From: Acetobacter estunensis
GTDB lineage: Bacteria; Pseudomonadota; Alphaproteobacteria; Acetobacterales; Acetobacteraceae
DNA length: 64,000 bases
Direction of reading: 5' to 3'
Assembly: GCF_011516945.1 (NCBI RefSeq)
Contig: NZ_WOTH01000004.1
Span: forward strand, 1 to 64,000
The position numbers and the translations under genes were made by a program. How positions within the stretch are numbered: the stretch's first letter is position 1; each line of letters starts with the position of its first letter. This document shows, piece by piece, positions 48,671 through 64,000 of the stretch. Under the pieces are notes generated by a model. It was not told the origin of the DNA, made no database searches, and saw only the letters and a list, made by a program, of their open reading frames with translations.

Positions 48671-49708
48671 TTACCAGCGACCGACGGGATGGTGCCGCAC
48701 CCGGCGCACGACAAATGCCGTCCAGACAAACTGCGGCAACAACACGACCAGAATGAGTGGCAGCAGAGTGGGAAGCCTTCCCAGCAATGCGTAGGCACCC
48801 ACTCCCCATGCGACGAAGCCCCAATGGAGGAGCGTCACCATGGGCATCGGGAGGCCCGCACGGAAGGCGACCTGATAGAGATGCCCGCGATGCGCCTGCA
48901 GCAGTTTTTCGCCAGCGAATGAGCGCCGCATCAGTGTGACGGCCACGTCATAGAGCAGACCGGCGATCAGGCAGGGCACGAGCGCCGCTGCGTGCAGATT
49001 CGGCAGTTCCTGCGCAACCGGACCGCCTTGCGCCAGCATGAGTGCGGCTGTGGCGATCAGCAGGCCGCAGGGCTGGCTCCCCACATCGCCAAGGAAAATG
49101 CGGGCGTGGGGGAAATTAAGTGGCAGGAACGCCAGCAACCCGAACGCCAGAAGGGCGCTGTTGCCGCGCAATTCCACGCCATCCGCTGGCCAAAAAGGGA
49201 GGGCGAGGCACAGGAGGGACAGACACAGCACGCCGCCGACCAGCCCGTTGAGGCCGTCCATGAAATTCACGGCGTTGGTGACGAACACTGTCCACGTCAC
49301 GGCGCAGAGCATGGTGACCGCCAGCATGAACCCCGCGTCGCCCATCGGCAGGGTCGCAAGGGTGACGAGCACGGCGGCCACAACCTGCGCTGCCAATTTG
49401 ATGAGGGGCGGCCACTGATACACGTCGTCCAGCCATGACACCGTGCCCAGCAGCATCGCCGCACCCCATATCGCGATCCCTTCAGGCGCGAAGGTGTCCA
49501 GACCGCAGAGCATATGCAGGGGAAAGTACAGCAGCCCGAACGCTCCCATGACGCCCACGCCGCCGCCCTTGGGGGTCGGGCGCGTGTGCGAGCTGCGGTG
49601 GCCCGGCGTATCGAGCACCGCCACACGGATCATGCTGCGCGTCAGCAGGGCCGACAGCGCGTAAGCGCCCAGCAGCACAAGAAGGGAGGGAGAAAACACA
49701 TGGAACAT
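48671..49708 (-). CDS. WecA/WbpL-like polyprenyl-phosphate glycan-1-phosphate transferase
   Basis: The 345-residue membrane enzyme (about 10 helices) belongs to the MraY/WecA family. These load the first sugar-phosphate onto undecaprenyl phosphate to start a surface glycan. Motifs are RSSHTRPTPKGGG, SWLDDVYQWPP with the Asp-Asp pair, FVTNAVNFMDGLNG, and ARIFLGDVGSQPCG. The HRGHLYQ box lies near the C-terminus. The length and the HSS/RPTP opening suggest the WbpL-like group that often uses N-acetyl-quinovosamine or fucosamine. It is divergent from the PglF/WbpM-like dehydratase, which supports that idea. The ATG at 49708 is chosen; a TTG at 49732 is less likely. Confidence 0.88.
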   Translation of the reverse strand: MFHVFSPSLLVLLGAYALSALLTRSMIRVAVLDTPGHRSSHTRPTPKGGGVGVMGAFGLLYFPLHMLCGLDTFAPEGIAIWGAAMLLGTVSWLDDVYQWPPLIKLAAQVVAAVLVTLATLPMGDAGFMLAVTMLCAVTWTVFVTNAVNFMDGLNGLVGGVLCLSLLCLALPFWPADGVELRGNSALLAFGLLAFLPLNFPHARIFLGDVGSQPCGLLIATAALMLAQGGPVAQELPNLHAAALVPCLIAGLLYDVAVTLMRRSFAGEKLLQAHRGHLYQVAFRAGLPMPMVTLLHWGFVAWGVGAYALLGRLPTLLPLILVVLLPQFVWTAFVVRRVRHHPVGRW

Positions 49709-49812
49709 GGGCAACGGCAGCGGTGATCCCAAGGCGGAAGGGGAACGGAAGGAAAGAAACCTCGGCTTCGTTTCTTCTAGCCGACGCGCAGGTGGGCTAT
49801 AGGGCGAGCGTG

Positions 49813-51855
49813 ATGGTCCCGCAACGCCCGGATGTCGCGCCGAGAAGCACCCGGCTGCGGCCGTTCAATCGGATTCTGGTCAACGTCCTGCTCGATGGCA
49901 GCGTGGCCGCTCTGGCGGCGCCTGTCGCCCGCTGGCTGGCTGCACCGCGTGACGGGTTGATTCATCCCTTGTGGTTTCTGGCCAGTGGCGCGATCACGCT
50001 GCTGGTCAGCGGTCTGCCGTTCCGAATGCCGCAGCAATACTGGCGCTTTTCCGGCACGTCCGATCTACTGGGGATTGTGGGCGCGTCGGTCGCCAGCGCC
50101 ATTTTGTTCACGCTCGGGCTGAAAGCCACCGGTTTCCCGCTGCCCAGCCCGACATTCCCCCTCATTTACGCCATGACACTGGTGGCCATGCTCGGTGGCC
50201 TGCGCCTGTCCTATCGTCTGAGCAACACGCTCGCCCGGCGGCGCGCCCTGTTGCGTCCCATCGTGCTGGTGGGCGCCGATCAGGTGGCGGATCTTTATCT
50301 CCGCGCCATCGACCGTAACCCGGAGGCGGGTGTGCGTGTGACGGGCCTGATCGGCCAAGGCACGCATCAGGCCGGACGGCGTATTCACAATGTGCCGATC
50401 CTCGGTCATGTGACCGATATTGCCGCTCTGCTCGATGGGATGGCGGAGCGCAACGCCCTGCCTGAGAGCCTCGTCGTGACGGATTCGAACTTCCGGGGCG
50501 AAGCCTTGGGGCGCGTGCTGGCGGCGGCCGAGGCTCATGGAATCGAGGTCATGCGTGCGCCGGTGCTGACCGCGCTGACGCCCGCCTCGCGCATCGAACT
50601 TCGGCCCGTCATGATCGAGGATCTGCTCAACCGGCCGCAGGTGCCGTTGGACCGGGCGGGCATGGACCGGATGATCCGCGATCAGGTTGTGCTCGTCACG
50701 GGCGCGGGGGGCACCATCGGCTCCGAACTCGCCCGGCAGATCGCGGGATTCGGGCCGCGCCGACTGGTGTTGCTCGATCATGGCGAGTTCGCGCTGTGGC
50801 AGATCGACGTGGAACTGGGCGAGCTTGCGCCAAAGGTGCCCCGCAGCGTCGTGGTGGCGGATGTGCGTGACGTTGGGCGCATCGACGAGGTGTTCGCGGA
50901 GTGTCGTCCGGCGCTCGTGTTCCATGCCGCAGCCCTCAAGCATGTGCCCATTGTAGAAGCCAATGCCTGTGAGGGGCTACTGACCAATGTGGTCGGCACG
51001 CGCATTGTGGCGGACGCTGCAAGACAGCACGGCGCCCGCGCGCTGGTGATGATTTCCACCGACAAGGCGGTCAATCCCTCCAGTCTGATGGGAGCGAGCA
51101 AGCGCGCGGCGGAGATGTACTGTCAGGCGCTCGACATCGCCGCCCGCACGTCCGGCGATCCCGCCGCCCTGCGCTGCGTGACGGTGCGGTTCGGCAATGT
51201 GCTGGGATCGACCGGCTCCGTGGTGCCGCTTTTCCGTCGCCAGCTTGAGCGCGGCGGCCCGCTGACGGTGACGCATCCTGACATGCAGCGCTATTTCATG
51301 ACTGTGCCGGAGGCCGTGGGGCTTGTGCTTCAGGCCAGCGTGCGCGGGACGGACGGGCGTGGTTTCGATGCGGACATGATGCCCGTTCTTGAACCGGCGC
51401 GGGTGGCGGGCACCGACCGCCTGCTGCGCGATGGTGGGATTTTTGTGCTCGATATGGGCGAGCCGGTGAAGATCGTGGATCTTGCCCGTCAGATGATCCG
51501 GCTTGCGGGCCTGCGCCCCGACGAGGATGTGGCCATTCGTTTCACGGGGCTGCGGCCGGGTGAGAAGCTGTTCGAGGAGTTGTTTCACGGGCGTGAGGCA
51601 CCTGTGCCGACGGACGCGCCCGGCCTGCTGATGGCCGCCCCCCGTGTGGTGGAACTGGCCGGAATGGAGCGGGCTGTGGACCGCATTGCGGCACTGGCGC
51701 ATGCCGGAGATGCGACGGCGGCGATTGCGGTGCTCAAGACACTCGTGCCCGAATTCGATCACAATGCGACCGGCGAGATGGACCTATGCGTGCGGGCGGG
51801 GCCGGGGCGCGCTACAACCGCCGCCATCGGTGAGGGAGAGGAACGGACGTCATGA
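49813..51855 (+). CDS. Membrane-bound UDP-GlcNAc 4,6-dehydratase (PglF/WbpM/CapD-like)
   Basis: The 680-residue enzyme makes a UDP-4-keto-6-deoxy-HexNAc intermediate for unusual amino sugars. It has about four N-terminal helices (20-140), a CoA-binding-like domain (about 145-260), and an SDR dehydratase domain. The NAD motif TGAGGTIG is at 296-303 and STDKAVNP at 415-422. A Ser-Met-Lys active site has Met426 and Lys430 (LMGASKRAAEMY), with Met replacing the usual Tyr, as in PglF and WbpM. It overlaps the aminotransferase gene by four bases. The sequence ends in a variable tail. Confidence 0.92.
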   Translation: MVPQRPDVAPRSTRLRPFNRILVNVLLDGSVAALAAPVARWLAAPRDGLIHPLWFLASGAITLLVSGLPFRMPQQYWRFSGTSDLLGIVGASVASAILFTLGLKATGFPLPSPTFPLIYAMTLVAMLGGLRLSYRLSNTLARRRALLRPIVLVGADQVADLYLRAIDRNPEAGVRVTGLIGQGTHQAGRRIHNVPILGHVTDIAALLDGMAERNALPESLVVTDSNFRGEALGRVLAAAEAHGIEVMRAPVLTALTPASRIELRPVMIEDLLNRPQVPLDRAGMDRMIRDQVVLVTGAGGTIGSELARQIAGFGPRRLVLLDHGEFALWQIDVELGELAPKVPRSVVVADVRDVGRIDEVFAECRPALVFHAAALKHVPIVEANACEGLLTNVVGTRIVADAARQHGARALVMISTDKAVNPSSLMGASKRAAEMYCQALDIAARTSGDPAALRCVTVRFGNVLGSTGSVVPLFRRQLERGGPLTVTHPDMQRYFMTVPEAVGLVLQASVRGTDGRGFDADMMPVLEPARVAGTDRLLRDGGIFVLDMGEPVKIVDLARQMIRLAGLRPDEDVAIRFTGLRPGEKLFEELFHGREAPVPTDAPGLLMAAPRVVELAGMERAVDRIAALAHAGDATAAIAVLKTLVPEFDHNATGEMDLCVRAGPGRATTAAIGEGEERTS

Positions 51856-52991
51856 GTGCGACATCAGGGGAAAAGCCCATCGCGTTTCTCGATCTGCCCG
51901 CTCAGCAGAAGCGACTTGGACCGGCCCTGAAAAAGCGGATCGACACGGTGCTGGAGCATTGCCGTTTCGTGCTTGGTCCCGAGGTGACGGAGCTTGAGGA
52001 GCGACTGGCCGCGTGGTCCGGCGTGGGGCATTGCGTGGGCGTCTCGTCCGGCACGGACGCGCTTCAGATCGTCATGATGGCCGAGAATATCGGACCGGGA
52101 GACGCGGTGTTCCTGCCCGCTTTCACGTACACCGCCACGGCGGAAGTGCCGCTGGTGCTGGGAGCGACACCCGTTTTCGTGGATGTGGATCCGCAGACGT
52201 TTCAGATTGATCCCGCCAGTCTGCGCGCGCGGATCGCCGCTGTGAAAGCGGCTGGCAAGCTGACGCCACGCGCCATCGTCGGTGTGGATCTGTTCGGCCA
52301 GCCTGCGCCGTGGGAAGAGTTGCGGGCGATTGCCGCGGAAGAGAGGCTGTTTCTTCTGGACGACTGCGCGCAGGCTTTCGGTGGTGTGTATCGGGGACGG
52401 CCTCTGGGTGGGGAGGCCGTCGCCACGACGCTGTCCTTCTTTCCGTCCAAACCGCTGGGTGGTTACGGCGACGGCGGAGCGATCCTGACGGACGACGCGG
52501 AGCGTGCCGAGCTTTACCGCTCTCTGCGCACGCATGGCGAAGGCAAGACCCGCTATGAGGTGCTGCGCACCGGCATGAACGGGCGTCTGGACACGTTGCA
52601 GGCGGCGGTGCTGCTGGCCAAGCTGGATGGTTTTCGTGAAGAACTGGCACGGCGTGAAGCCATTGCTTGCGCTTATGACGCTGGTCTTGCAGGTGTGGCG
52701 CAGGTGCCGGTCCGCGTGCCGGAGAGCGCCAGCGCATGGGCGATCTATTCCATTCTGCTGAAGGACGAGGCACAACGCGCGGCGACGCAGGCCCGCATGA
52801 GGGACGCTGGCGTGCCTTCGGCCATCTATTACCCGTTGCCGCTGCATCATCAGCCGGCCTATCGGGATCACCATGACGGGGTGGCGCTGCCGGTATCGGA
52901 GGCGCTGTCGAAGCGCATCCTCGCGCTGCCCATCCACCCGGAATTGACGGATGCGGAGGTCGCGCGCGTGATCTCCGCTGTCCGAGGCTGA
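51852..52991 (+). CDS. DegT/DnrJ/EryC1/StrS-family sugar aminotransferase
   Basis: This PLP-dependent enzyme transaminates the 4-keto (or 3-keto) sugar made by the upstream dehydratase. The 379-residue protein shows FLDLPAQQK and GVSSGTDALQIVM. It has FLPAFTYTATAEVPL, DDCAQAFGG, and SFFPSKPLGGYGDGGAI with the PLP lysine at Lys200, plus GMNGRLDTLQAAVLLAKL. It overlaps the dehydratase gene (ATGA), which supports a joint function such as making UDP-4-amino-4,6-dideoxy-GlcNAc. The acetyltransferase expected for a bacillosamine pathway is not next to it. Confidence 0.92.
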   Translation: MSATSGEKPIAFLDLPAQQKRLGPALKKRIDTVLEHCRFVLGPEVTELEERLAAWSGVGHCVGVSSGTDALQIVMMAENIGPGDAVFLPAFTYTATAEVPLVLGATPVFVDVDPQTFQIDPASLRARIAAVKAAGKLTPRAIVGVDLFGQPAPWEELRAIAAEERLFLLDDCAQAFGGVYRGRPLGGEAVATTLSFFPSKPLGGYGDGGAILTDDAERAELYRSLRTHGEGKTRYEVLRTGMNGRLDTLQAAVLLAKLDGFREELARREAIACAYDAGLAGVAQVPVRVPESASAWAIYSILLKDEAQRAATQARMRDAGVPSAIYYPLPLHHQPAYRDHHDGVALPVSEALSKRILALPIHPELTDAEVARVISAVRG

Positions 52992-53006
52992 AGGACTGAC
53001 AAGACG

Positions 53007-53477
53007 ATGAGGAAGGAAACGGTGTTCATCATCACCTTTCTGGTGTTCACGATGGGCACGGCGCTGGTGATCTGGCTGTTCGCGCTGCCGAATTTCGTGT
53101 CGATGACTTTTCCGCAGGTGACGGCGGGCAAGGTGGTATCCGGTCCAATGCGCAACACACGCGATCTGACGCAGGCGGAAGTGGCGACACTCAACGACTG
53201 GCTCCAGCATCACACCAGCGGCTGGGGACCGCTGAGCCAGACACCACCGTCCAGCGGTGACGCCCGGCTGGAGCTTCAGGCCACGCGCGACGGCAAGCCC
53301 GATCCGATTGTGCTGACCTTGTGGACCGGTATCAGCGCTGCCGACTGGAACAACACGGTGTTCGTGGAAACGCCCGACGGCTCGAAGGTCCGCACCGAGA
53401 GCTTCAAGGACAAGGACTTTCAGCCTCTGCGCAAAATGGGGGATGGCGCGGCGTTTCCGCGTTCGGCTTTCCCCTGA
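53007..53477 (+). CDS. Single-pass membrane protein of unknown function in the nucleotide-sugar operon
   Basis: I do not recognise this 156-residue protein. One N-terminal transmembrane helix (VFIITFLVFTMGTALVIWLF) is followed by a periplasmic domain of about 130 residues. It contains GKVVSGPMRNTRDLTQAEVATLNDW, a Ser/Pro stretch, LVLTLWTG-like IVLTLWTGISAADWNNTVFVETP, and a polar tail. It lies 15 bases after the aminotransferase and its stop overlaps the HAD gene, so it is almost certainly co-transcribed and coupled. A role in envelope glycan assembly would be inference from context. Confidence 0.75.
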   Translation: MRKETVFIITFLVFTMGTALVIWLFALPNFVSMTFPQVTAGKVVSGPMRNTRDLTQAEVATLNDWLQHHTSGWGPLSQTPPSSGDARLELQATRDGKPDPIVLTLWTGISAADWNNTVFVETPDGSKVRTESFKDKDFQPLRKMGDGAAFPRSAFP

Positions 53478-54076
53478 TGGGAGAGCTTCCCGCTGGGACG
53501 CAGGCTCTGATCTTCGATTGTGACGGCACGCTGGTGGACAGTCTGCCGCTCTATCTCGAAGCGTGGCTGGACGCATTGAAGACGAAAGGTGGGATCGAGG
53601 TCGCGCCTGAGTGGTTTTTCAGCCGCCGTGGCTATTCGGAAGAAATGGTGCTGGCGGCACTGGAGAAAGAGCGCGGGGTGGCTCTCGACCATGCGGCGAT
53701 CAAGGCCGCGACTCGTGCGGGCGTTCTGGCGCGTCTGCCGCAGGTGAAGGCGAATGTGCCGGTCGTGGAGATCGTGCGGGAATGGGCAGGGAGGTTGCCC
53801 ATGGCTGTAGCCTCAAGCGGTTCCCGCGCGGTGGTGGAGGCTTCCCTCGTCGCGGTCGGGATTCGCGATGTGTTCGAGGCGGTCGTTACGATTGACGATG
53901 TGGAACGACCCAAGCCCGCTCCGGACCTCTATCTTCTGGCGGCCCAGCGGCTGGGCGTGGAACCGGCCCATTGCGTGGTGTTCGAGGACAGCGCGGAGGG
54001 GCTGGACGCCGCGCTTGCGGCTGGGATGAACGCGCGGGACGTGCGCCCGTGGTCGATGTTCCGGCATCTCTCATGA
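53477..54076 (+). CDS. HAD-superfamily phosphatase / phosphoglucomutase-like
   Basis: The 199-residue HAD hydrolase of subfamily IA has motif I FDCDGTLVDS (Asp14 nucleophile and Asp16), motif II VASSGSR, motif III KPAPD, and motif IV VFEDSAEGLDAALAAGM. A cap domain lies at about 30-85. Substrate is unknown; beta-phosphoglucomutase-like or glycolate phosphatase-like activity is possible. It overlaps the membrane-protein gene upstream and the CWC gene downstream (ATGA), so it belongs to the same operon. Confidence 0.88.
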   Translation: MGELPAGTQALIFDCDGTLVDSLPLYLEAWLDALKTKGGIEVAPEWFFSRRGYSEEMVLAALEKERGVALDHAAIKAATRAGVLARLPQVKANVPVVEIVREWAGRLPMAVASSGSRAVVEASLVAVGIRDVFEAVVTIDDVERPKPAPDLYLLAAQRLGVEPAHCVVFEDSAEGLDAALAAGMNARDVRPWSMFRHLS

Positions 54077-54258
54077 AGACGGTGACGCGGTGCGCACAGT
54101 GCGGCGCGTCACTGGAATGTCTGGCTTCCGAGTCCTGCTGGTGCATGAAACAGCCTGCCGTATTGCCGGTGCCGGCTGAGGGCGAGACCGTGGGATGCCT
54201 GTGCCCTACCTGTCTGGCCGCTGCTGCGAAGGGTGATCTCAGTTCTTCCGGATCGTGA
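54073..54258 (+). CDS. Cysteine-rich CWC-family protein
   Basis: This 61-residue protein carries cysteines at 7, 10, 16, 22, 24, 42, 44 and 47. The segments CAQCGASLEC, CWC and CLCPTC match the small cysteine-rich CWC family, probably a metal-binding knuckle of unknown role. The ATG overlaps the HAD stop. Its 3' end overlaps the end of the convergent TusA-like gene by about 20 bases. Confidence 0.82.
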   Translation: MKTVTRCAQCGASLECLASESCWCMKQPAVLPVPAEGETVGCLCPTCLAAAAKGDLSSSGS

Positions 54259-54502
54259 GAGTGTGTCGATTGTCCGGACCGTTTTCGGTAGCAAGCACGG
54301 TATGACCGAGCGCCTGCGTCGAGCGGGTGACGTTGCGCAGAGGTTCCTCGCCTTTGAGTGTGACATGCAACAGATGTCCTTTTGCCAGCGCGTCGAGTGC
54401 GAGACGGGTTCGCACGAACGTCATGGGACAGGTCTCGTTGGTGATGTCGAGGGCTGTGGCTTCGGTCGAATCGGGCATGGTCACAAGGTGGAGCCGGGAC
54501 AT
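54239..54502 (-). CDS. TusA-like sulfur carrier (SirA/YedF family)
   Basis: TusA-family proteins carry persulfide sulfur or act in redox regulation. The 87-residue protein has DITNETCPMTFVRTRLALDAL with the conserved Cys25. The motif is CPM rather than the CPxP of true TusA, so function in tRNA thiolation is less sure. A typical beta-alpha-beta layout follows. The ATG at 54502 or 54478 may be the start. It is convergent with the CWC gene. Confidence 0.85.
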   Translation of the reverse strand: MSRLHLVTMPDSTEATALDITNETCPMTFVRTRLALDALAKGHLLHVTLKGEEPLRNVTRSTQALGHTVLATENGPDNRHTLTIRKN

Positions 54503-54642
54503 CCGTTCTTCAAGAGACGGCGATCAGTGTGCATTTTCGTCACTCTCTGACGTGACATCCCGGTAACGAGTGGACAAGATGCGTGAGAATCAGCTAGGCG
54601 ATGGCGTATGGTGGTGAACATGCAGCCTGCAGGAAACAATCC

Positions 54643-55167
54643 GTGAGTCCGGTGCGGACCTCCTCTCCCCCCCGTTCCGCGTCGGCGGCGAAGTCGGCCG
54701 ACCTCTCCGATTCCCGAATCGCGCGGATGTGCATCGACCGTGGTCTGAAAATGACCGGTCAGCGTCGCGTGATCGCGCGTGTCCTTTCGGACGCGGAAGA
54801 TCATCCCGATGTGGAAGAGTTGTATCGGCGGGCGTCCGCGCTCGATCCCAAGATTTCCGTGGCGACGGTCTATCGAACCGTCCGTCTGCTGGAAGAGAAG
54901 GGCATTCTCGAACGACGGGACTTCGGTGGTGGGCGCGCCCGTTACGAAGCGACCGAGCATGGCCGGCATTATCATCTGATCGATGTGGACAGCGGCAAGG
55001 TCATTGAGTTTGAGGATGAGGAGCACGAGGCGCTGATGCATCGCCTGGCCAAGCGCCTTGGCTTTGAACTGGTTTCGCTCCGACTGGAACTGTTTGGACG
55101 GCGTCTGCCGGAGGTGGGGACGCCTGCCAAAAAAGGTAAAACCGCGCGCAAGGATGAGACGCCATGA
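54643..55167 (+). CDS. Fur-family metal-responsive regulator
   Basis: The 174-residue regulator starts at a GTG with AGGAAA upstream. The winged-helix DNA-binding domain (MTGQRRVIARVL, HPDVEELYRRASALDPKISVATVYRTVRLLEEKGIL) is followed by the metal and dimerisation region HGRHYHLIDVDSGKVIEFEDEE. The CxxC structural zinc pair of E. coli Fur is absent: DVDSG stands where CLDCG would be. This is common in alphaproteobacterial Fur/Mur proteins that sense manganese or iron. It overlaps the acyltransferase gene by four bases. Confidence 0.92.
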   Translation: MSPVRTSSPPRSASAAKSADLSDSRIARMCIDRGLKMTGQRRVIARVLSDAEDHPDVEELYRRASALDPKISVATVYRTVRLLEEKGILERRDFGGGRARYEATEHGRHYHLIDVDSGKVIEFEDEEHEALMHRLAKRLGFELVSLRLELFGRRLPEVGTPAKKGKTARKDETP

Positions 55168-56012
55168 GCGTCGAGACACAGCGAAACGGAGGCCTGTCCA
55201 CACTTGAACTCGAACGCAACGGGTTCAGGGAACTGCGCGGCGGCAATCTCGGCGTACGGATTGCCTCTACACCCGAAGAGATCGATGCCGCGCAGGCGCT
55301 TCGCTATCGCGTGTTCGTCGAGGAAATGGGGGCGCAGCCGAGCGAAGAAGCGTTTCGTCTCAAACGGGACGTGGATGAGTTCGACGCCTATGCCGATCAT
55401 CTGCTGGTGATTGACCATGCCATTTCATCCGGGCCGGAAGGCGTGGTGGGCACATATCGTCTGATGCAGGACGACGCCGCTGCGCGTCTGGGTCGGTTTT
55501 ACAGCGAGAGTGAGTTCGATCTCGCTCTGCTGCACAAGTTTTCCGGCAAGCTGCTTGAGGTCGGCCGTTCCTGCGTGGACGCACGTTACCGTGGACGTGC
55601 GGCCATGCAGTTGTTGTGGCGTGGCATCGCGTCCTACATCTTCCTGCACCGTATCGATGTGCTGTTTGGCTGCGCCAGTCTGGCCGGGACCAATCCGGAC
55701 GAACTGTCGGAAGAACTGACCTATCTCTATCATAACCATCTCGCGCCTCCGGCCCTGCGGGTAAAGGCTCTGCCGGAGCGGCGTGTGGAGATGCTGCGCT
55801 GCGATCCGCTGACGATCGACCGACGTCGTGCGCTCGCGCGTCTGCCTCCCCTCGTCAAGGGCTATCTGCGACTTGGCGGTTATGTCGGTGACGGGGCTGT
55901 GGTGGATCATCAGTTCAACACCACGGATGTGGCGGTTCTGGTGAAGAGCGAACTTATGGCCGACAAATATTACAGGCATTACGAGCGCCGCCTGCGCGAC
56001 GCGCTCGACTGA
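55164..56012 (+). CDS. olsB: GNAT-fold ornithine-acyl-ACP N-acyltransferase (OlsB-like)
   Basis: OlsB attaches a 3-hydroxyacyl chain to ornithine to make lyso-ornithine lipid, a phosphate-free membrane lipid. The 282-residue protein shows the hemolysin/OlsB signature ALRYRVFVEEMGA, VGTYRLMQ, GKLLEVGRSCVDARYRG, and IDVLFGCASLAGTNP. The ATG overlaps the Fur stop, so the two are translated together. Only the first enzyme of the pathway is here; an OlsA acyltransferase would be needed elsewhere. Some members of this family act on other substrates. Confidence 0.85.
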   Translation: MSVETQRNGGLSTLELERNGFRELRGGNLGVRIASTPEEIDAAQALRYRVFVEEMGAQPSEEAFRLKRDVDEFDAYADHLLVIDHAISSGPEGVVGTYRLMQDDAAARLGRFYSESEFDLALLHKFSGKLLEVGRSCVDARYRGRAAMQLLWRGIASYIFLHRIDVLFGCASLAGTNPDELSEELTYLYHNHLAPPALRVKALPERRVEMLRCDPLTIDRRRALARLPPLVKGYLRLGGYVGDGAVVDHQFNTTDVAVLVKSELMADKYYRHYERRLRDALD

Positions 56013-56016
56013 GAGC

Positions 56017-57540
56017 GTGTTTCGGGGAGATGAGGCCCTTTTGGGCGGCGCATCGGGTGGTGGCGCTCCGCCCCGCATGGGCGTGCTGCGTCGGACCGCG
56101 CGTGGTTTGCGCCGGTTGCTCCGACCTTTGATGGCCGGAGGAGTGGCGGCATTCGCTTTTCCACCGCTGCATCTGGTGTTTCTGCTCCCCTTTGCGTTCG
56201 CTGTGCTCATGCGCGGCATCGACCGTGCGTCCGATTGGCGTCGTGCGGCGGCGCAAGGTTTCGCCTTCGGTTTCGGGCTGCATGCGGTCGGGCTGTACTG
56301 GCTGATTAACGCCATTCTGATTCGCGCGAGCGACTTCTGGTGGTTCGTGCCATTTCCCTCCCTCGGCTGTGCTTTCATTCTTGCGCCGTTTGCTGCCGTG
56401 CCCGCGGGTGTGTGTCGTCTGGCTCCCGCAGGCTGGCGGCGCGGCGTACTGTTCGCGGTTCTGTGGACCGTCTGCGATATGGGACGGCTGTTTCTTTTCA
56501 GCGGCTTCACATGGAATCCAATCGGCAGCGATTGGGCGTTCCACGGTTTGGCGGGAGATGTGATGATTCAGCCCGCCGCGTGGATCGGTGTGGACGGATT
56601 GACGCTGTTGACCGTACTTCTGGCCGTTCTGATGCCGCTTGGACGACGGTTCATCGTTGCTGGCGGGATGGTCCTGCTCGTATGGGCCGGGTTGGGGGCG
56701 TGGCGGTTTTACGCCTTGGCCGAGGCGGCGGCTCCTACGGCGTCTTCACCGGTTGTGGTGCTGGTGCAGGGGAATGTGCCGGAACAGGAGAAAATCACTC
56801 GCTCCGATGTTCGGGCTATTTTCGAGCGTTATCTCCGGTTGACGCGTGAAGGCGTGGCACAGGGGCTGAAAATGGCTGGGCAGCCACAGGGAGCGGCGCG
56901 GCCGGTGGTTTATGTCTGGCCCGAGACGGCGTTTCCGGGCGTGCTGGAAGAGGATGATGTTGCGCGGTCGATGATTGCACGGGCCGCTGAAGGGGCGACG
57001 GCGGGTGTTATCGGAACCCTGCGGGTCGGACCTGATGAGCACTGGCGCAATTCCATCGTGGCTCTCAATGAAGCGGGACGTGTGGAAGGCGTGTACGATA
57101 AGGCGCGTCTGGTACCGTTCGGTGAGTATCAGCCACGTTTTATTCCGCTGCAGGTTGTGCCGGGCGGTGGAATGACGCCGGGACCGGGACCGCTAAGTTG
57201 GCATCTTCCCGATCTTCCGCCTGTGGGTCCATTGGTTTGCTACGAGGTGATCTTCTCGGGGCATGTGGTGGATCGGCATGATCGTCCGCAGTGGTTGGTA
57301 AACGTCACTAACGACGCTTGGTATGGTAACAGCGCTGGGCCACGCCAGCATCTGGCTGCGGTGCGGCTGCGTGCTGTGGAAGAAGGGTTGCCTGTGGTGC
57401 GGGCTGCCAATACCGGCGTGTCGATTGTCTATGACGCACGCGGGCACGATATGGGGCGATTGGAGTGGGGTAAGGAAAGCGTGCTGGTGCGGGCGCTGCC
57501 GTCGGCGCTGCCGCCGACGGTGTTTGCATGGTGGAGATAA
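56017..57540 (+). CDS. lnt: Apolipoprotein N-acyltransferase
   Basis: Lnt adds the third acyl chain to the N-terminal cysteine of lipoproteins. The 507-residue protein has about seven N-terminal helices. A nitrilase-like periplasmic domain follows with the catalytic triad Glu303 (VWPETAFPG), Lys362 (DKARLVPFGEYQ) and Cys408 (PLVCYEVIF). The motif VRAANTGVSIVYDARG follows. The GTG start at 56017 comes 4 bases after olsB; ATG at 56077 is an alternative. It ends 15 bases from the AT-rich island. Confidence 0.94.
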   Translation: MFRGDEALLGGASGGGAPPRMGVLRRTARGLRRLLRPLMAGGVAAFAFPPLHLVFLLPFAFAVLMRGIDRASDWRRAAAQGFAFGFGLHAVGLYWLINAILIRASDFWWFVPFPSLGCAFILAPFAAVPAGVCRLAPAGWRRGVLFAVLWTVCDMGRLFLFSGFTWNPIGSDWAFHGLAGDVMIQPAAWIGVDGLTLLTVLLAVLMPLGRRFIVAGGMVLLVWAGLGAWRFYALAEAAAPTASSPVVVLVQGNVPEQEKITRSDVRAIFERYLRLTREGVAQGLKMAGQPQGAARPVVYVWPETAFPGVLEEDDVARSMIARAAEGATAGVIGTLRVGPDEHWRNSIVALNEAGRVEGVYDKARLVPFGEYQPRFIPLQVVPGGGMTPGPGPLSWHLPDLPPVGPLVCYEVIFSGHVVDRHDRPQWLVNVTNDAWYGNSAGPRQHLAAVRLRAVEEGLPVVRAANTGVSIVYDARGHDMGRLEWGKESVLVRALPSALPPTVFAWWR

Positions 57541-57555
57541 TAGGTTCCAGGGTAA

Positions 57556-58347
57556 TTATATACTTAACATTGGAACATATGTAACTTTTATTAGAGAATT
57601 TTCCATTTTCTTTTGGAATACATAATAAGAAAACAATTTTTCTGAATAATATCCTAATTCTCGAGGGTAAACATTAAGAGATTTTTGTAAGTTTTTCATT
57701 ACTTCATGCCAAAAATGCATGTATTCATCAAATAAATCTTTTTTCATAATAAATGAACACCTATAATTTGTAGTTGTATGATTGAAATCAATCAACATTG
57801 GTTTATTGTGGAAATATGAGCATGACACAATGCAGTGTTCGAGTAAAGTATCATCACAAAACTCACTTTTTGTGCTTATATTTTGTGATCTGATGCAAAT
57901 TATATCATAAGATGATACTTTTTCTTTTAGTGGTTCAATTATGTGGAAATTCTTTTCTTTTCGAATCTCTAGTGCGTTATTAAATGAAATTTTATCATGA
58001 AATATTTCTTGTTGTTGGTTCTTTTCAATCAGTTTTCGTAAAAATAGAAGGCGTGGATATTTATTCATAATAAATTTTAACGGGAAAGGATCTAAATATA
58101 GTATTCTTCTATAATGCTCAAATCCGATATAATCATAGTCAGACATAAGATTTTTCCATACGTAATAATGTGCTCTCATTTCGGAGTGTGTTTCTTGATT
58201 TGATATATTATCTTCACAATCTAAATCGCCAATAAAGGAATTTTCTTTGGATTTTTTTCCTATTATAAAATCAGAAAATACATCATTTGATATGTAATCT
58301 GTATTTTCGTCAAAAAAATGCGAAATTCGAAAAATTTTCATTTTCAC
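57556..58347 (-). CDS. DUF4422 domain glycosyltransferase-like protein
   Basis: The 263-residue protein shows the DUF4422 pattern: FIGDLDCEDNISNQETHSEMRAHYYVWKN (not quoted in full), YIGFEHYRR, and NYPRELGYYSEKLFSYYVF near the C-terminus. Members sit in capsule, LPS and glycan loci and are thought to be glycosyltransferases. The GTG start has GGAG seven bases upstream; the ATG two codons later is the alternative. It is convergent with lnt and divergent from the next gene across 213 AT-rich bases. Codon use is AT-biased, unlike all flanking genes. Confidence 0.8.
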   Translation of the reverse strand: MKMKIFRISHFFDENTDYISNDVFSDFIIGKKSKENSFIGDLDCEDNISNQETHSEMRAHYYVWKNLMSDYDYIGFEHYRRILYLDPFPLKFIMNKYPRLLFLRKLIEKNQQQEIFHDKISFNNALEIRKEKNFHIIEPLKEKVSSYDIICIRSQNISTKSEFCDDTLLEHCIVSCSYFHNKPMLIDFNHTTTNYRCSFIMKKDLFDEYMHFWHEVMKNLQKSLNVYPRELGYYSEKLFSYYVFQKKMENSLIKVTYVPMLSI

Positions 58348-58560
58348 TTTTTATCTCCATTTGGTTATTGTTGGTGTGAAGGTTTTTCTAAAGTATTTCT
58401 AAAATCAGTTTGTTATAATAAAGTTAATTTTATATATATAATTATTATTTTTTCATTGTCTTATATTTTGGATAATATGGATGTTTTTTATTCTTGGTGT
58501 GAGATTTTTTTGGCGCTATAATGAAAAGCCTTTTTATAATACACACATAGAGTATGTTAA
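58348..58560. promoter_or_regulatory. Divergent AT-rich promoter region inside the island
   Basis: The 213-base spacer between two divergent island genes is nearly all A and T. On the plus strand two TATAAT boxes occur at 58517-58522 and 58535-58540, upstream of the 58561 gene, without convincing -35 boxes. AT-rich promoters of this kind are often silenced by H-NS/MucR-type proteins; that is inference. Confidence 0.4.
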
Positions 58561-60513
58561 ATGAAAAATGTTTTTGTATGTATTCCATTCGCTGTTGGAG
58601 AGAATCATTTTCAGTATTTATTTGATGTGTTTAGTGGATTTTTCAATATAAAAAATATTTTTGTGGAGATTGTTGTTGTTGCAAAAGGTGTTGATGAAAA
58701 ATTTAATTGTGAATTTAATAGGTGTTTTGGGAAATTTTGCAATGAAAGAATGAAAGTTACATTAAATTCAGTATCGGAGGAAAATTTTTCATGGTGCCAT
58801 ATCGAATTAATGAAAGAGAAGTTTTCTTATTCTGAAATATTATATACTCATTTTGTTTATATTGAGAGCGATATTTTCTTTAGTTCTGTTAATTTTGAAT
58901 ATTTTTTGGAATATCGGGCCTATCTTTCAAATTTTGGCTTGATTCCGGGTTTTTTGCGCATCGAGTTTAATAGACGCCAAAATGATGTTTTTGTATGTGA
59001 TCAGGCTGGGCAGTTTGATCAAGCAGGTAAATTTTTTGTCCATGTGAATGGAATGGATTTTGTCGAAGTGGGGTCTTGTGCTGTTGGATTGTTTGTTCTC
59101 GATAGAGAGGGTTTTTCTGAATATATAAATACTCGATCTTCCGATGAGATTGAAAGTAATAATGTTGTGCAATGGGGTGTTGCACAAAGAGCTGGAATGG
59201 GTTTGATGTGGGAAAATATCCCGCCAGGTTTTCAGGCGCGGATGGTTGTTCCTTTGTGTGCAGATAAAAGTGGTCCTGATCCGATGTGTTGGGTGCGGCA
59301 TGTATCGGATAGTTTTACAAACGATTACAATGATACTCCAAATTTCATACTTGGAAAAACTAGACTAGATCAAATGTTTAAAGAAAAATTTTATGGCGGA
59401 AAAAATATAATCTTATCATCGGCTAGAAGTTTTAACACAAAAAAACACAATGGAATAAAGTTTTTAACTGAAGTTTTTGAATGTTGTTGTTATGATAGAA
59501 GTAAACTTATTGCATTTGGTGATAAGTCTTTTTTAGATAACTTAAGTTTTTACAATTTTCCATTGGAGAATTCTCCTGCCGTAATGCAAAATGTGATTTT
59601 AGTAAAATTTGATGATATTTACGTGGTTGGAGGTATAATATACCCATTTTTAGATAAAGAAATAACTGTTTTATACGAAATATTTCGCCCAAATGACCGA
59701 CCTGCGCTTCCTGTACCGGATGTGAATTTTTCTCGTGGTATAGAATACAATTATCAGAATGATAATGTGAATTTTATTTGTACATCAGCAGGATCAGCAT
59801 CTAATTATGGGCACTGGCTTGTGGATGATCTTCCAAGATTCAAGGCTTTAGATGGATTTAAAGGTAAAAAAATAAATATTATACTGCAGTCTGGATCAGA
59901 ATTATTGAATTATGTGAGGCAAGAGTCGATTTGTATGGCTTTTCCGGAGTATGAATTTGAGTTCATTTTCTATGATGGACGTTATCCAATACGATTAAAA
60001 GATGCTTATTATGTGACCCCGACGACATATCATCCGATTGTAAAATCATCCCCAGCATTAAAGTACCTTTCTTGTTTGGGGCAAAAAATGAGACGAAGTA
60101 ATAGTTCTAAGCGTATTTTCCTTCTGCGTCGTCCACCCGAACGGCGGGCGCTTGTAAATTACAATGAAGTAATGGCATCTCTTTCGAAATATAATTTTGA
60201 TCTCATAGATATTTCTGGATGGAGTGTTAAACGGCAAGCAGAGATTTTTTCTGGGGCTGAAATTGTTGCTGGTTGTATGGGGGCTGCAATGACTAATGTT
60301 GTCTTTTCTGCGCTGGGATTGGAGACTATTCTGTTCGCGCCAGAGGGTTGGGTGGAACCTTTTTATTGGGATTTAGCAATGGCACGAGGCGACTCGTATG
60401 TTGTTTTTTATGGAAAAACTTTAAATACTGACGTTGCGCCTAATGATAGTGATTACGAAATTGATATTTCTTCATTGGAGTTGTATTTAGAAAGACGATT
60501 TGGTTATCGTTAG
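58561..60513 (+). CDS. Two-domain glycosyltransferase: GT-A-like plus GT61 (DUF563)
   Basis: The 650-residue protein appears to be a fusion. The N-terminal part (about 1-260) has KNVFVCIPFAVGENHF and an ESD motif at 102-104 in FVYIESDIFFSS, like the metal-binding D-x-D of GT-A enzymes. The middle (about 280-370) is unassigned. The C-terminal part (about 380-645) is GT61-like: SASNYGHWLVDDLPRF (His418), RIFLLRRPPERRALVN, and GCMGAAMTNVVFSALG near residue 571. GT61 enzymes transfer xylose, GlcNAc or similar sugars. There is no clear Shine-Dalgarno site. Base use is AT-rich throughout. The donor and acceptor are unknown. Confidence 0.75.
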   Translation: MKNVFVCIPFAVGENHFQYLFDVFSGFFNIKNIFVEIVVVAKGVDEKFNCEFNRCFGKFCNERMKVTLNSVSEENFSWCHIELMKEKFSYSEILYTHFVYIESDIFFSSVNFEYFLEYRAYLSNFGLIPGFLRIEFNRRQNDVFVCDQAGQFDQAGKFFVHVNGMDFVEVGSCAVGLFVLDREGFSEYINTRSSDEIESNNVVQWGVAQRAGMGLMWENIPPGFQARMVVPLCADKSGPDPMCWVRHVSDSFTNDYNDTPNFILGKTRLDQMFKEKFYGGKNIILSSARSFNTKKHNGIKFLTEVFECCCYDRSKLIAFGDKSFLDNLSFYNFPLENSPAVMQNVILVKFDDIYVVGGIIYPFLDKEITVLYEIFRPNDRPALPVPDVNFSRGIEYNYQNDNVNFICTSAGSASNYGHWLVDDLPRFKALDGFKGKKINIILQSGSELLNYVRQESICMAFPEYEFEFIFYDGRYPIRLKDAYYVTPTTYHPIVKSSPALKYLSCLGQKMRRSNSSKRIFLLRRPPERRALVNYNEVMASLSKYNFDLIDISGWSVKRQAEIFSGAEIVAGCMGAAMTNVVFSALGLETILFAPEGWVEPFYWDLAMARGDSYVVFYGKTLNTDVAPNDSDYEIDISSLELYLERRFGYR

Positions 60514-60519
60514 AGTTTA

Positions 60520-61761
60520 TTATATTTTGTAATTTGGTATTGCATACTTCAAAAAGAAAAAAGTTTCCCATTCTGATAAGTTTTCTCGAGTAACATTTAT
60601 TTTTTCTTCATTAGTAATGTCATAGCATAAAAATTTTCTATCGAGATGAAGTCCAAATCCGGATTTTTTTGTATATGAAATGGAGAATATAGTTGCTTTT
60701 TGTGGATTTTTGGTGTGAAGGATAACCTCATTTTTTTTAAATATTAGGAAATGTTTTGAATGGTCAATTTTTACAGTAAGTGTCATTCCCTCTTCAAGTA
60801 TTTGTAATTGTACCTCGGTCATATCTGGATAAATTCTTTTTCCGCGTAAGGTTTGATATTCAGGGGAATAGTATATTTTTTCCCCGTTGAAAGTGGAAAT
60901 TTCCCATTCTAATTGTTGGGGGGGAGGTGGCTGCGTAGAACGAGTTTGTTCTTGTATACAAAACATTTCATAACGTAAAAAGGCGGCTTCTTCGTCCCCT
61001 CGCCATGCATGGCGATAGATTTCTTCTTTTGCTAATTTTTTGTAAATTGGCGAGTTGAAAGAAATGCCTTCATAATCAGGGCCTTTATCAAGACCGCGTA
61101 CTTCTAAATTTGAATGAATCAAATAAGGAAGAAGTCTCTCTTCGCCTTCTTTTTCTTGTATCCCACCGTATCCAGCTCGAATGAAACGATTTGTATGATC
61201 AACATGCTCAAAACCATAACGCCGAAAACGTGTATCCATAAATCCGACATCGGCTAAAGCCCGCCGACTAAAAGCAGAGCATTGACCAGTTAAATATATT
61301 GAAATAAATGGATTATCTACAGTTCCTTCGCCTTGCAGGTATTCATTTGGCCAATGCAAAGGAGCTAAGTTTACGTGTCCATATTTCTGGACGGCGTCTA
61401 TCCAGACTTTTTCCCATCCCATAGTAGTAGGTCGCGTATCATCTTCTAAAAGAATAATAATGTCACATTCGCGGTATTTTAATAGATAATATAGTACTCG
61501 ATTTTTGTTCCAAGCAATTCCCCGATTAGAAACTGATAGATAATCAACATTGAACGTTTTTATTATGTCTAAAGTATCGTCACTAGAGCCATCATCAGAA
61601 ACAAAAATATAACTCTCTGTTTCTGTAAATTTTTTTATCGCTTCAATAGTTTCTTTTAATATAGAAGATCTGTTGAATGTGGTTATGCCAATTCCAATTT
61701 TTAGGTCAGTCGCTTTCTGTGGAAAGTTCTTTGATAGATTTAGTGGCATTTTTATACTCAT
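60520..61761 (-). CDS. GT2 family glycosyltransferase with C-terminal beta-rich domain
   Basis: The 413-residue protein has a GT2-type catalytic domain (about 20-270): IGITTFNRSSIL, VSDDGSSDDT (DDGSS at 56-60), and ILLEDDTRP with the E-D-D at 106-108. It also has GFMDTRFRRYGFEHVDHTNRF with the likely catalytic acidic residue. A Pro-rich linker (QPPPPQQ, about 280) leads to a C-terminal region of about 120 residues made of short beta segments. Examples are ITVKIDHSKHFLIFKKNEV-like and WETFFFLK, reminiscent of a beta-trefoil or fascin-like lectin fold. It converges on the GT61 fusion gene with only 6 bases between stops. AT-rich. Confidence 0.8.
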   Translation of the reverse strand: MSIKMPLNLSKNFPQKATDLKIGIGITTFNRSSILKETIEAIKKFTETESYIFVSDDGSSDDTLDIIKTFNVDYLSVSNRGIAWNKNRVLYYLLKYRECDIIILLEDDTRPTTMGWEKVWIDAVQKYGHVNLAPLHWPNEYLQGEGTVDNPFISIYLTGQCSAFSRRALADVGFMDTRFRRYGFEHVDHTNRFIRAGYGGIQEKEGEERLLPYLIHSNLEVRGLDKGPDYEGISFNSPIYKKLAKEEIYRHAWRGDEEAAFLRYEMFCIQEQTRSTQPPPPQQLEWEISTFNGEKIYYSPEYQTLRGKRIYPDMTEVQLQILEEGMTLTVKIDHSKHFLIFKKNEVILHTKNPQKATIFSISYTKKSGFGLHLDRKFLCYDITNEEKINVTRENLSEWETFFFLKYAIPNYKI

Positions 61762-61804
61762 TTGGTGTGAATTTTATTATTATATCACATAACAAAATAA
61801 TTTC

Positions 61805-61838
61805 TTCTGCGTTAATTATGGTAACAATTAACGTAGAA
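61805..61838. repeat. Imperfect palindrome at the right edge of the AT-rich island
   Basis: TTCTGCGTTAATT (61805-61817) and AATTAACGTAGAA (61826-61838) are inverted repeats with one wobble and an 8-base spacer. It lies between the GT2 gene start and the end of the LysR gene. It may be an operator for the GT2 gene or a terminator-like hairpin for the LysR gene, without a good T run. Confidence 0.5.
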
Positions 61839-61880
61839 AAGCCGTGATGAGTTCTCTATAAATGAATAACTTGCAGGATT

Positions 61881-62801
61881 TTATCCCCGTAGCCCCAACT
61901 CACTCGTTAGGAAATCCCGGAACACCGCGACCCGCTTGGAACTCCGGAGTTCTTCCGGATATACGAAGAACGCCTCAACCTGAGGCGCTGGCACGTCCGC
62001 CAGAACCCGCACCAGCGTCGGATACTCCGTCACGGCATAACCCGGCACGGAACCGATCCCCAGACCGGAAGAAATGGCGTCAGCCATCGCCACCATGCTG
62101 TTGACTTCCAGACGGGCAGGACGACGCTGACCTTCCGGCATTCCGGCTTCCAGCAGCCAGTTCACATGCGGGACGGGAGGATGATAACCCCCGAAGGCAA
62201 CGAGCTGATGCGTGGCCAGATCGTCCAGAGAGGCGGGTTGTCCGAACTGCTCCAGATAACGCGGGGACGCGTACACATGCAGGGGAAAATCTGCCAGGTG
62301 ACGCTGGATCAGATCCGGTTGGCGGGGAGCGTGCATGCGCACGGCAACATCGGCCTCCCGCATCCCAAGATCGAGATCGTTGTCTTCAAGGATAAGGGAA
62401 ATGGAGATGTCCGGGTTCTGCTCCATGAACTTGTGCAGACGCGGCATCAGCCAGCAGCTTCCGAAACCTGTCGTCGTGGTGACACGAAGACGACCGGCAG
62501 CCTTTTCCTTGCTCTCGGTCAGGAGTGTCTGGGTCATCTCGAGTTTGGAGAAGACCTCGCGCACCGTCTGATTGAGCGTCTCACCCTGCTCGGTCAGGAT
62601 GAGGCCTCGGGCATGGCGATGGAAGAGTGGAACCTGAAGAACATCCTCCAGGGCAGAAATCTGACGTGAAACCGCAGACTGGCTCAGATTCAGCACGTCA
62701 CCTGCGTGCGTGAAGGAACCGGCTTCGGCAACAGCGTGGAAGATTCTGAGTTTGTCCCAGTCCACACCACTCTCCCTTACATAACTTTGAGCATGCGCCA
62801 T
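61881..62801 (-). CDS. LysR-family transcriptional regulator
   Basis: The 306-residue protein has an N-terminal HTH (WDKLRIFHAVAEAGSFTHAGDVLNLSQSAVSRQISALE, about 14-52). A substrate-binding domain follows (RLRVTTTTGFGSCWLMPRL, VAVRMHAPRQPDLIQRHL, SGLGIGSVPGYAV). It is read in the same direction as trxB and starts 69 bases after it, so it may be co-transcribed. The effector is unknown. A GcvA-like role is possible but not supported by position near gcv genes. Confidence 0.9.
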   Translation of the reverse strand: MAHAQSYVRESGVDWDKLRIFHAVAEAGSFTHAGDVLNLSQSAVSRQISALEDVLQVPLFHRHARGLILTEQGETLNQTVREVFSKLEMTQTLLTESKEKAAGRLRVTTTTGFGSCWLMPRLHKFMEQNPDISISLILEDNDLDLGMREADVAVRMHAPRQPDLIQRHLADFPLHVYASPRYLEQFGQPASLDDLATHQLVAFGGYHPPVPHVNWLLEAGMPEGQRRPARLEVNSMVAMADAISSGLGIGSVPGYAVTEYPTLVRVLADVPAPQVEAFFVYPEELRSSKRVAVFRDFLTSELGLRG

Positions 62802-62870
62802 CCGGGCTGCGGCGCATCCAATGGGTTTTCGTGACGGAAATATGAGGTCAGGTCAAGTATTCTGCCTCAT

Positions 62871-63821
62871 TCAGGCAACAATTCCGGCAAGGTGACGTTC
62901 CGCGTCGAGGGCCGCCATGCAGCCTGTGCCGGCTGCCGTCACAGCCTGTCGATAAATCTTGTCCTGAACGTCCCCTGCGGCAAAGACGCCGGGCACGGAT
63001 GTGCGGGTGGTGCCGCGTTCAGTGACGATATAGCCCTCTGTGTCGAGCATGAGCTGGTCATGGAAAAGGCCGGTATTGGGGGAGTGCCCGATGGCGATGA
63101 ACACCCCATCGACCGGCAATGTGCTCATCGTCTCGTTGAGTACATTGAGCAGTTTTACACCCGTGACGGTCGGCGGTGTGCCCGAAGCAAGAATGTCAGC
63201 CACGACCGAGTTCCACACGACCGAGACTTTGGGATTGGCCAGTAGCCGGTCCTGAAGGATCTTTTCGGCACGCAGGGAATCGCGACGGTGGATCAGGGTC
63301 ACATGGTCGGCATGATGGGTCAGATAAAGAGCTTCTTCGACCGCTGTGTTGCCGCCACCCACGACCGCGACCCTCTTGCCCCGGAAGAAGAAGCCATCGC
63401 AGGTGGCGCAGGCCGACACGCCAGCCCCCTGAAGGGCTTTTTCATTGGGAAGGCCGAGCCATTTCGCCTGTGCGCCCGTGGCGATGATAACGCTGCGCGC
63501 CAGATAGACATCCCCACCATCGAGTGTCACGCGAAATGGCGAACCGTTACGAAAGTCCACCTTCGTGACAAGATCATGAACGATCCGGGTGCCGACATGC
63601 TCGGCCTGCGCAGCCATCTGCTCCATCAGCCACGGCCCCTGAATGGCGGTGGCGAAACCGGGATAATTTTCCACATCCGTGGTGATCATCAACTGGCCGC
63701 CCGGCTGCATGCCCGCCACCAGAACAGGCGCCAGATTGGCGCGCGCGGCGTAGATCGCGGCGGTGTAGCCAGCCGGGCCCGCGCCGATGATGAGAAGGTC
63801 GGTGGAGGTCGTCGTACTCAT
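62871..63821 (-). CDS. trxB: Thioredoxin-disulfide reductase
   Basis: TrxB uses NADPH and FAD to reduce thioredoxin. The 316-residue protein has an FAD motif IIGAGPAGYTAAIYA (11-25), the redox-active CATC at 138-141, a second Rossmann motif VAVVGGGNTAVEEALYL, and GVFAAGDVQDKIYRQAVTAAGTG near the end. Length and motif order are canonical. It is first in trxB-LysR, read leftward; the promoter must lie to its right, at 63822-64000. Confidence 0.96.
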   Translation of the reverse strand: MSTTTSTDLLIIGAGPAGYTAAIYAARANLAPVLVAGMQPGGQLMITTDVENYPGFATAIQGPWLMEQMAAQAEHVGTRIVHDLVTKVDFRNGSPFRVTLDGGDVYLARSVIIATGAQAKWLGLPNEKALQGAGVSACATCDGFFFRGKRVAVVGGGNTAVEEALYLTHHADHVTLIHRRDSLRAEKILQDRLLANPKVSVVWNSVVADILASGTPPTVTGVKLLNVLNETMSTLPVDGVFIAIGHSPNTGLFHDQLMLDTEGYIVTERGTTRTSVPGVFAAGDVQDKIYRQAVTAAGTGCMAALDAERHLAGIVA

Positions 63822-64000
63822 GGCGTCCTTCGCTCTGTCCGTGACGGTAATGCGAAATCCAAAGTGCTGCGGATATGAGCCTGCGGACGCTCAAGGGCAA
63901 CCCGCGGCTTGTGTTTTCCGTTACGCAGGGGCTTTGGACAGGGGCTGGTACCTCCTGTATGCAGCGCGCAGAAGGGTGTGGAGAGACAAAGGCGTGACGG

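Follow-up and report, generated by a model that had tools for sequence, protein, structure and literature searches.

How did three AT-rich genes come to lie between lnt and a lysR gene in Acetobacter estunensis, and what might they make there? The question arises from a window of 64,000 nucleotides (the whole stretch analysed, C4:1-64000 of genome G000, an assembly of 3.45 Mb in 120 contigs). Our answer, which we hold with somewhat better than even confidence, is that these genes form a lineage-specific cassette of three glycosyltransferases, set in the scar of a block move and acting on a surface glycan. The features from which the argument starts are the following.

57541..61880, no strand: AT-rich island, between the lnt stop codon and that of lysR; fraction of G plus C (GC) 0.325
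57556..58347, minus strand: DUF4422 gene, a GT111-like putative galactofuranosyltransferase; GTG start at 58347, with ATG at 58341 possible too
58561..60513, plus strand: 650-residue fusion of an unclassified GT-A-like domain and GT61 (PF04577, 68.3 bits, residues 416-584)
60520..61761, minus strand: GT2 with a C-terminal extension (PF00535, 43.5 bits)
56017..57540, plus strand: lnt, the left flank (TIGR00546 over cut-off)
61881..62801, minus strand: LysR-type regulator, the right flank (PF03466, PF00126)
62871..63821, minus strand: trxB (TIGR01292 over cut-off)

Composition and site of the island

The GC of 0.325 in 57541-61880 compares with about 0.6 outside. Among 500-base windows at a step of 50 that lay wholly inside or wholly outside the island (edge-crossing ones excluded), all 77 inner windows fall at GC 0.238-0.414 and all 1174 outer windows at 0.516 or above, and the shift occurs, by eye, within about 15-30 bases of the lnt stop codon (57538-57540) on one side and of the lysR stop codon (61881-61883) on the other. 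The three genes have GC 0.264, 0.348, and 0.349, third-position GC (GC3) of 0.21-0.26, and codon scores of -0.66, -0.56, and -0.62, far beyond those of the background open reading frames (ORFs) with a typical coding profile, GC3 > GC1 > GC2, a filter biased toward high GC3 (23 of 42; GC3 at least 0.66, codon score at least 0.03). The abrupt change at both edges that had been read from the sequence by an earlier model-made note (the original prediction) is thus confirmed, in GC by the 500-base windows that it proposed and in codon use gene by gene. The gap between lnt and lysR is occupied by these three genes only; the other ORFs of at least 90 residues, at 57323-57625 and 58927-59301, overlap or oppose them. 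That the island is isolated in a housekeeping setting holds only in part: a glycan-type module at native GC lies within the window at 48671-52991, with PF00953 (WecA-like), PF02719 dehydratase-type, and DegT aminotransferase genes.

Nothing at the island identifies it as an integrative mobile element, for which we would look to an integrase or transposase, a tRNA target, and edge repeats. Among ORFs of at least 90 residues there is no integrase or transposase, as had been predicted; no tRNA was found in the 64-kb window, no Rfam match reached the gathering score within 50000-64000, and no direct repeat joins both edges among 20 of 26 repeat families.

In all 20 lnt loci fetched from same-genus relatives, lnt is followed by an XRE-type regulator, and the island genes have no tblastn match (E 1e-4) in any of them; lnt itself is matched in 60 of 61 genomes, the window's genome counted. 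In two relatives, G014 and G010, a stretch of 21-25 kb that holds XRE, ssb, an RND transporter, and manC separates lnt from lysR-trxB. The window's genome carries these genes on other contigs, XRE and ssb on C34; C3 has the RND gene and manC, and the gene order is compatible with the relocation of a single block. Which gene adjoins lysR on that side differs among ten relatives: manC in L067, L072, and L076, and other genes in L068-L071 and L073-L075. Only in the window's genome is lnt joined to lysR, an arrangement seen in no other species, and the site looks like a rearrangement scar, not an allelic locus. The comparison of the lnt-trxB interval across relatives, which the original prediction had called for, held in one part, the island genes being absent at the 20 lnt loci, and failed in another, lnt and trxB not being close neighbours in the relatives seen. 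The finding that would have spoken for an old locus, the same genes with the same bias at this place in all relatives, was not made at this site. C34 also carries an AT-rich patch of GC 0.26-0.48 with short ORFs only (L283, about 10.75-12.5 kb), some 4 kb away from where the moved block ends in XRE.

The three genes also share a repeat at their starts.

58371..58387, plus strand: repeat TTGGTGTGA, upstream of the DUF4422 gene
58494..58510, plus strand: repeat TTGGTGTGA, upstream of the GT61 fusion
61762..61778, plus strand: repeat TTGGTGTGA, immediately before the start of the GT2 gene

The 9-mer TTGGTGTGA has five copies in the window, four of them within the island (the fourth at 60710, inside the GT2 gene). 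In shuffled windows it averaged 0.51 copies, and none of 100 shuffles held five; in 300 Markov-resampled islands it averaged 0.03, and no 9-mer with at least four G/C exceeded three copies. An extended pattern around it has three exact matches genome-wide, all in the island, and one further one-mismatch match, about the chance expectation by our own estimate. A shared repeat at three gene starts suggests common origin or common control.

Three enzyme families and two domain combinations

All three genes are glycosyltransferases by family, with Pfam scores over the cut-offs, in keeping with what had been predicted from the letters, and structure and profile searches of the proteins returned WbbM, GT-A-type, and CBM92 matches. 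The DUF4422 protein (PF14393, 63.3 bits against a cut-off of 25) belongs to GT111/DUF4422 by its Pfam score and by its homology to the N-terminal domain of WbbM (PDB 6u4b, E 1.2e-11), which is described as a UDP-galactofuranose (UDP-Galf) transferase of GT111 in part of the text of PMC12269835. A single gene for UDP-galactopyranose mutase (PF03275, E 6.6e-78) is present in the genome, on contig C17, and therefore UDP-Galf is likely available. To judge from its sequence the DUF4422 protein probably transfers Galf, the mutase gene counting only as a consistent sign. At E 1e-6 it has matches in 21 genomes of the family sample, out of 396 besides this one. Outside the window there are 15 strong sites (E 1e-25 or better), with a GT61 neighbour at eight and a GT2 neighbour at one; 9 of the 15 thus adjoin a GT61 or GT2 relative, or 5 of 10 once orthologous sites are pooled (genus g78, four; Acidiphilium, two; g92, two).

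Several further loci touch on this family. The window's genome has another AT-rich DUF4422 gene, on C2, with GC 0.46, and two g92 genomes have tandem DUF4422 genes with further AT-rich genes at one site (L194:2170-3944 and L196:7886-9660). A contig called viral, L203 (IMGVR_UViG_2910421449_000001), carries what appears to be the DUF4422-GT2 pair of genome G404; it may owe its viral label to a false provirus call, or it may be a mobile copy. Adjoining the lone mutase gene is a 1177-residue ORF (C17:48367-51900, L288:5368-8901) in which an AIDA-type stalk match and a Hint domain are combined with a glycosyltransferase domain of group 1; a literature search for this combination gave no paper with three of its four terms.

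The other two proteins are composite, with the following parts.

58561..59430, plus strand: N-terminal GT-A-like domain of the fusion, residues 1-290 (partial AlphaFold2 model, no Pfam family)
59806..60312, plus strand: GT61 domain of the fusion (PF04577)
60523..60900, minus strand: CBM92-like C-terminal module of the GT2 protein, with a single WExF (profile match to 7zoh; W and E invariant in 7 sequences)

The GT61 assignment is clear (68.3 bits against a cut-off of 27). For the N-terminal part a Pfam search gave no match, and 3 of 6 relatives of the domain match GNT-I or Stealth_CR2 weakly, at scores under the cut-offs. Its AlphaFold2 model has a mean pLDDT (per-residue model confidence) of 58, with the first 120 or so residues at 69-93 and the rest poor. 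This partial, mostly low-confidence model matches mostly GT-A enzymes (Z 10.0-12.0, root-mean-square deviation 3.5-5.0, 162-197 residues aligned), with nucleotidyltransferases also among the best matches, and an E-x-D motif is invariant in 8 sequences, which together weakly suggest a GT-A-type fold. The two parts are fused in the same way in at least two other genomes: G085, at 35% identity over the whole length, and G337, as one open frame running off its contig (L120:1-2340, C38; GC about 0.71-0.74). In G246 they are separate neighbouring genes (L107), and in Acidiphilium, which we take to be a member of Acetobacteraceae, the N-terminal domain is a stand-alone gene (L270-L272). Besides this genome, the search with the fusion in a draw of 349 genomes across the phylum hit four more, of which three lie outside the family, with single-part matches only. 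A scan of GTDB contigs with the whole fusion gave no match, and one for the N-terminal domain, using two short patterns, gave three Acidiphilium records and one Algoriphagus record. In the Algoriphagus metagenome-assembled genome, which belongs to another phylum than the window's, this lone relative (L273:695-1516) has GC 0.26 against about 0.36-0.44 around it. A second AT-rich GT61 gene (GC 0.37) of A. estunensis lies near a contig end on C12, beside native-GC genes (L054:8065-9570). The fusion protein is probably a bifunctional enzyme.

The GT2 protein (PF00535, 43.5 bits against 23.3; E106-D107-D108 invariant in 7 aligned sequences) carries at its C-terminal end a module some 125 residues long. 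Built from seven of these modules, a profile matches CBM92 structures (7zoh, E 6.6e-6; 7zoi, E 1.1e-5), values that hold for the whole sequence, no single stretch being significant alone at E 0.001, and sequence-profile homology to CBM92 is established in this sense. Searched alone, the module found nothing better than E 1, and its model has pLDDT below 50. CBM92 is described as having three WExF sites, one per subdomain (PMC11039641, main text). Each of the seven modules has one WE, and because of this single site in place of three we call the module CBM92-like only, not a member. Matches to the GT2 protein at E 1e-10 occur in 71 of 396 other family genomes; at E 1e-20 they occur in 5 of 349 genomes across the phylum, namely this one, three other family members, and G594 from beyond the family, the last at 46% and over the GT2 domain only. 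In a tree of GT2 the window's protein groups with L125 (support 80/86), on long branches that make the exact sister unsure. A literature search, with supplements and subscription journals outside its reach, found neither the island nor the GT2-CBM92 fusion. The domain combinations GT-A-like with GT61 and GT2 with CBM92-like are both unusual, and both fusions are concrete targets for enzymology.

Origin of the cassette

The history that we propose begins with a block, running from XRE to manC and some 25 kb long, that would have come apart from lnt and lysR and left the scar. The cassette would have been assembled from a stock of glycosyltransferase genes present in Acetobacteraceae, often with AT bias, and would have entered by a non-allelic event, illegitimate or linked to the rearrangement.

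AT-rich glycosyltransferase islands are usually taken as recent imports. In four species of genus g78 (L186-L189), a DUF4422-GT61 pair occupies the same place, with the DUF4422 gene at GC 0.43-0.44 against 0.54-0.55. The pair resembles the island in having two of its three families, an AT-biased DUF4422 gene, and a position between other conserved genes; it differs in being present in all four species, in its milder bias, and in lacking both the GT2 gene and the fusion. Because this milder bias persists at one orthologous site, AT-richness is no proof of recent transfer. More broadly, 56 related genes in the fetched loci show a median GC drop of 0.07, with 37 at least 0.05 below their neighbours, in a comparison that repeats orthologous sites, has spurious ORFs in its background and no other gene class as control, and excludes frames running off contigs, including the fused gene of G337. 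The island genes, 0.28-0.36 below background, stand at the extreme end together with L117 (0.30) and L155 (0.26); the GT61 gene at L117:6775-9108, in genome G244, has GC 0.39 against 0.68 around it. Recent transfer as a conclusion from AT bias is thus weakened by the g78 site and the 37 of 56 genes; the data are compatible both with a cassette that was AT-rich when it arrived and with selection that favours low GC. Related genes at several sites in the family, some AT-rich and some not, could allow import, ageing, and selection for low GC to be separated.

Among other histories, a recent import from a distant low-GC bacterium is unlikely, though gene GC of 0.26-0.35 and GC3 of 0.21-0.26 speak for it. 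The best relatives, at 35-46% identity, are in Acetobacteraceae (the DUF4422 search covered family genomes, and the N-terminal domain scan two short patterns), the GT2 also has a relative in a gene of GC 0.66 (L125), and its E 1e-20 matches across the phylum are all in the family except G594; such a donor is therefore not favoured, with the reservation that the GT2 tree is long-branched. Alternatively, the genes could be a long-resident set, held AT-rich by selection or by local mutation bias, for example through an AT-binding silencer. The persistence of bias in g78 and the 37 of 56 genes lying below their neighbours speak for such a set, but the drop in the island exceeds that of all 56 genes except L117, the genes have no match in the lnt loci of 20 relatives, and the GC of the fused GT61 relatives is at or near the native level; we consider it quite unlikely. 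A bolder proposal, which we rate a shade lower still, is that Acetobacteraceae have in common a pool of small, often AT-rich cassettes (GT111, unclassified GT-A, GT61, GT2-CBM92-like), which enters intergenic sites and rearrangement scars without mobility genes, and that an AT-binding silencer and TTGGTGTGA, as an operator carried on the cassette, switch the glycan; if this were true, the low GC of the cassettes would be a regulatory trait.

The original prediction had suggested a cassette swapped through homologous recombination in conserved flanking genes, in the manner of O-antigen loci. On this view lnt and lysR/trxB would enclose an allelic locus whose content passes between strains. The edges, sharp at the stop codons on either side, and the lack of a mobility gene among ORFs of at least 90 residues speak for it, but relatives do not share the flanks: XRE follows lnt in 20 of 20, the lysR side has manC, RND, or other genes in the ten relatives, no other species seen has the lnt-lysR locus, and what stands between lnt and lysR in two relatives is found at other places in this genome. 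A scar in place of an allelic locus argues against a swap by recombination in conserved flanks, and we regard this as the least probable of these histories. Phage and plasmid origins can be dismissed: GT61 has no match in phage records and DUF4422 one unannotated match (26%), the best ten of 557 GT2 phage records are below 30%, and the plasmid matches listed are all below 40%. Viral contigs gave no relative for the GT2 sequence alone or for the N-terminal domain of the fusion, and 67 for the GT2 alignment (best L203, 42%, and L204, 32%), none extending past query residue 292 and therefore none covering most of the C-terminal module.

Several observations weigh against our own reading as well. 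The entry route is unmarked, with mobility gene, tRNA, and edge repeat all lacking; the join between C34 and C3 is unseen, and the block move may precede or follow entry of the cassette. The fused GT61 relatives are at native or near-native GC (G085, 0.58 against 0.61; G337, 0.71-0.74), and 19 of the 56 related genes lack a drop of 0.05, meaning that AT bias is not general. All three island genes occur together in no fetched locus, and 6 of the 15 strong DUF4422 sites have neither partner beside them, one of these six on a 4.5-kb contig. The mutase gene is on another contig, may serve another pathway, and is present in 4 of 14 control genomes too. Finally, the extended repeat pattern was derived from its own three matches, two of which lie in one intergenic region.

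Proposed function and known counterparts

If the island is a cassette in a rearrangement scar, its enzymes probably extend or side-decorate one cell-surface glycan, acting most likely in turn or as side-chain enzymes. The GT111-like protein would add Galf from UDP-Galf, the GT-A/GT61 fusion, as a bifunctional enzyme, would attach two more residues, and another would come from the GT2, whose CBM92-like module would hold the acceptor. What the data show directly are the genes, their composition, the altered gene order, the repeated pairing among relatives, the presence of a mutase gene, and the repeat that the gene starts have in common; we infer the transfer, the order of events, the donor sugars, the acceptor, and the single shared glycan. 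Among the three island genes there is no polymerase, flippase, transporter, or nucleotide-sugar gene, and the cassette must therefore use host functions; the WecA-like module at native GC, 4.5-9 kb upstream, is a possible start for the glycan. The idea that all the genes build one glycan thus finds support, as regards glycan building, in the families, the DUF4422 neighbours, and the mutase gene, the specific product being still a matter of inference.

Low-GC O-antigen and capsule clusters also contain AT-biased glycosyltransferases; unlike them, the island's three genes include none of the four host-supplied functions just named. In plan, the GT2 with its CBM92-like module resembles eukaryotic transferases that have a trefoil lectin domain. 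CBM92 itself (a bacterial fascin-like beta-trefoil, 7zoh) has the WExF block in common with the GT2 module, which differs in its single site and in being fused to a glycosyltransferase, a word absent from the main text of PMC11039641. With WbbM of Klebsiella pneumoniae O2a (6u4b) the DUF4422 protein shares the DUF4422-type domain of GT111, including the vwkn and hyrr blocks; WbbM carries an additional GT8 domain (PMC12269835, in part of its text), whereas the island protein is single-domain. Similarly, Kingella kingae pamA-pamB-pamC, as set out in an excerpt of its description, encodes a DUF4422 protein and a GT2 together, as in the island, but has its mutase within the locus, whereas in A. 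estunensis the mutase is on another contig and the GT61 fusion is extra.

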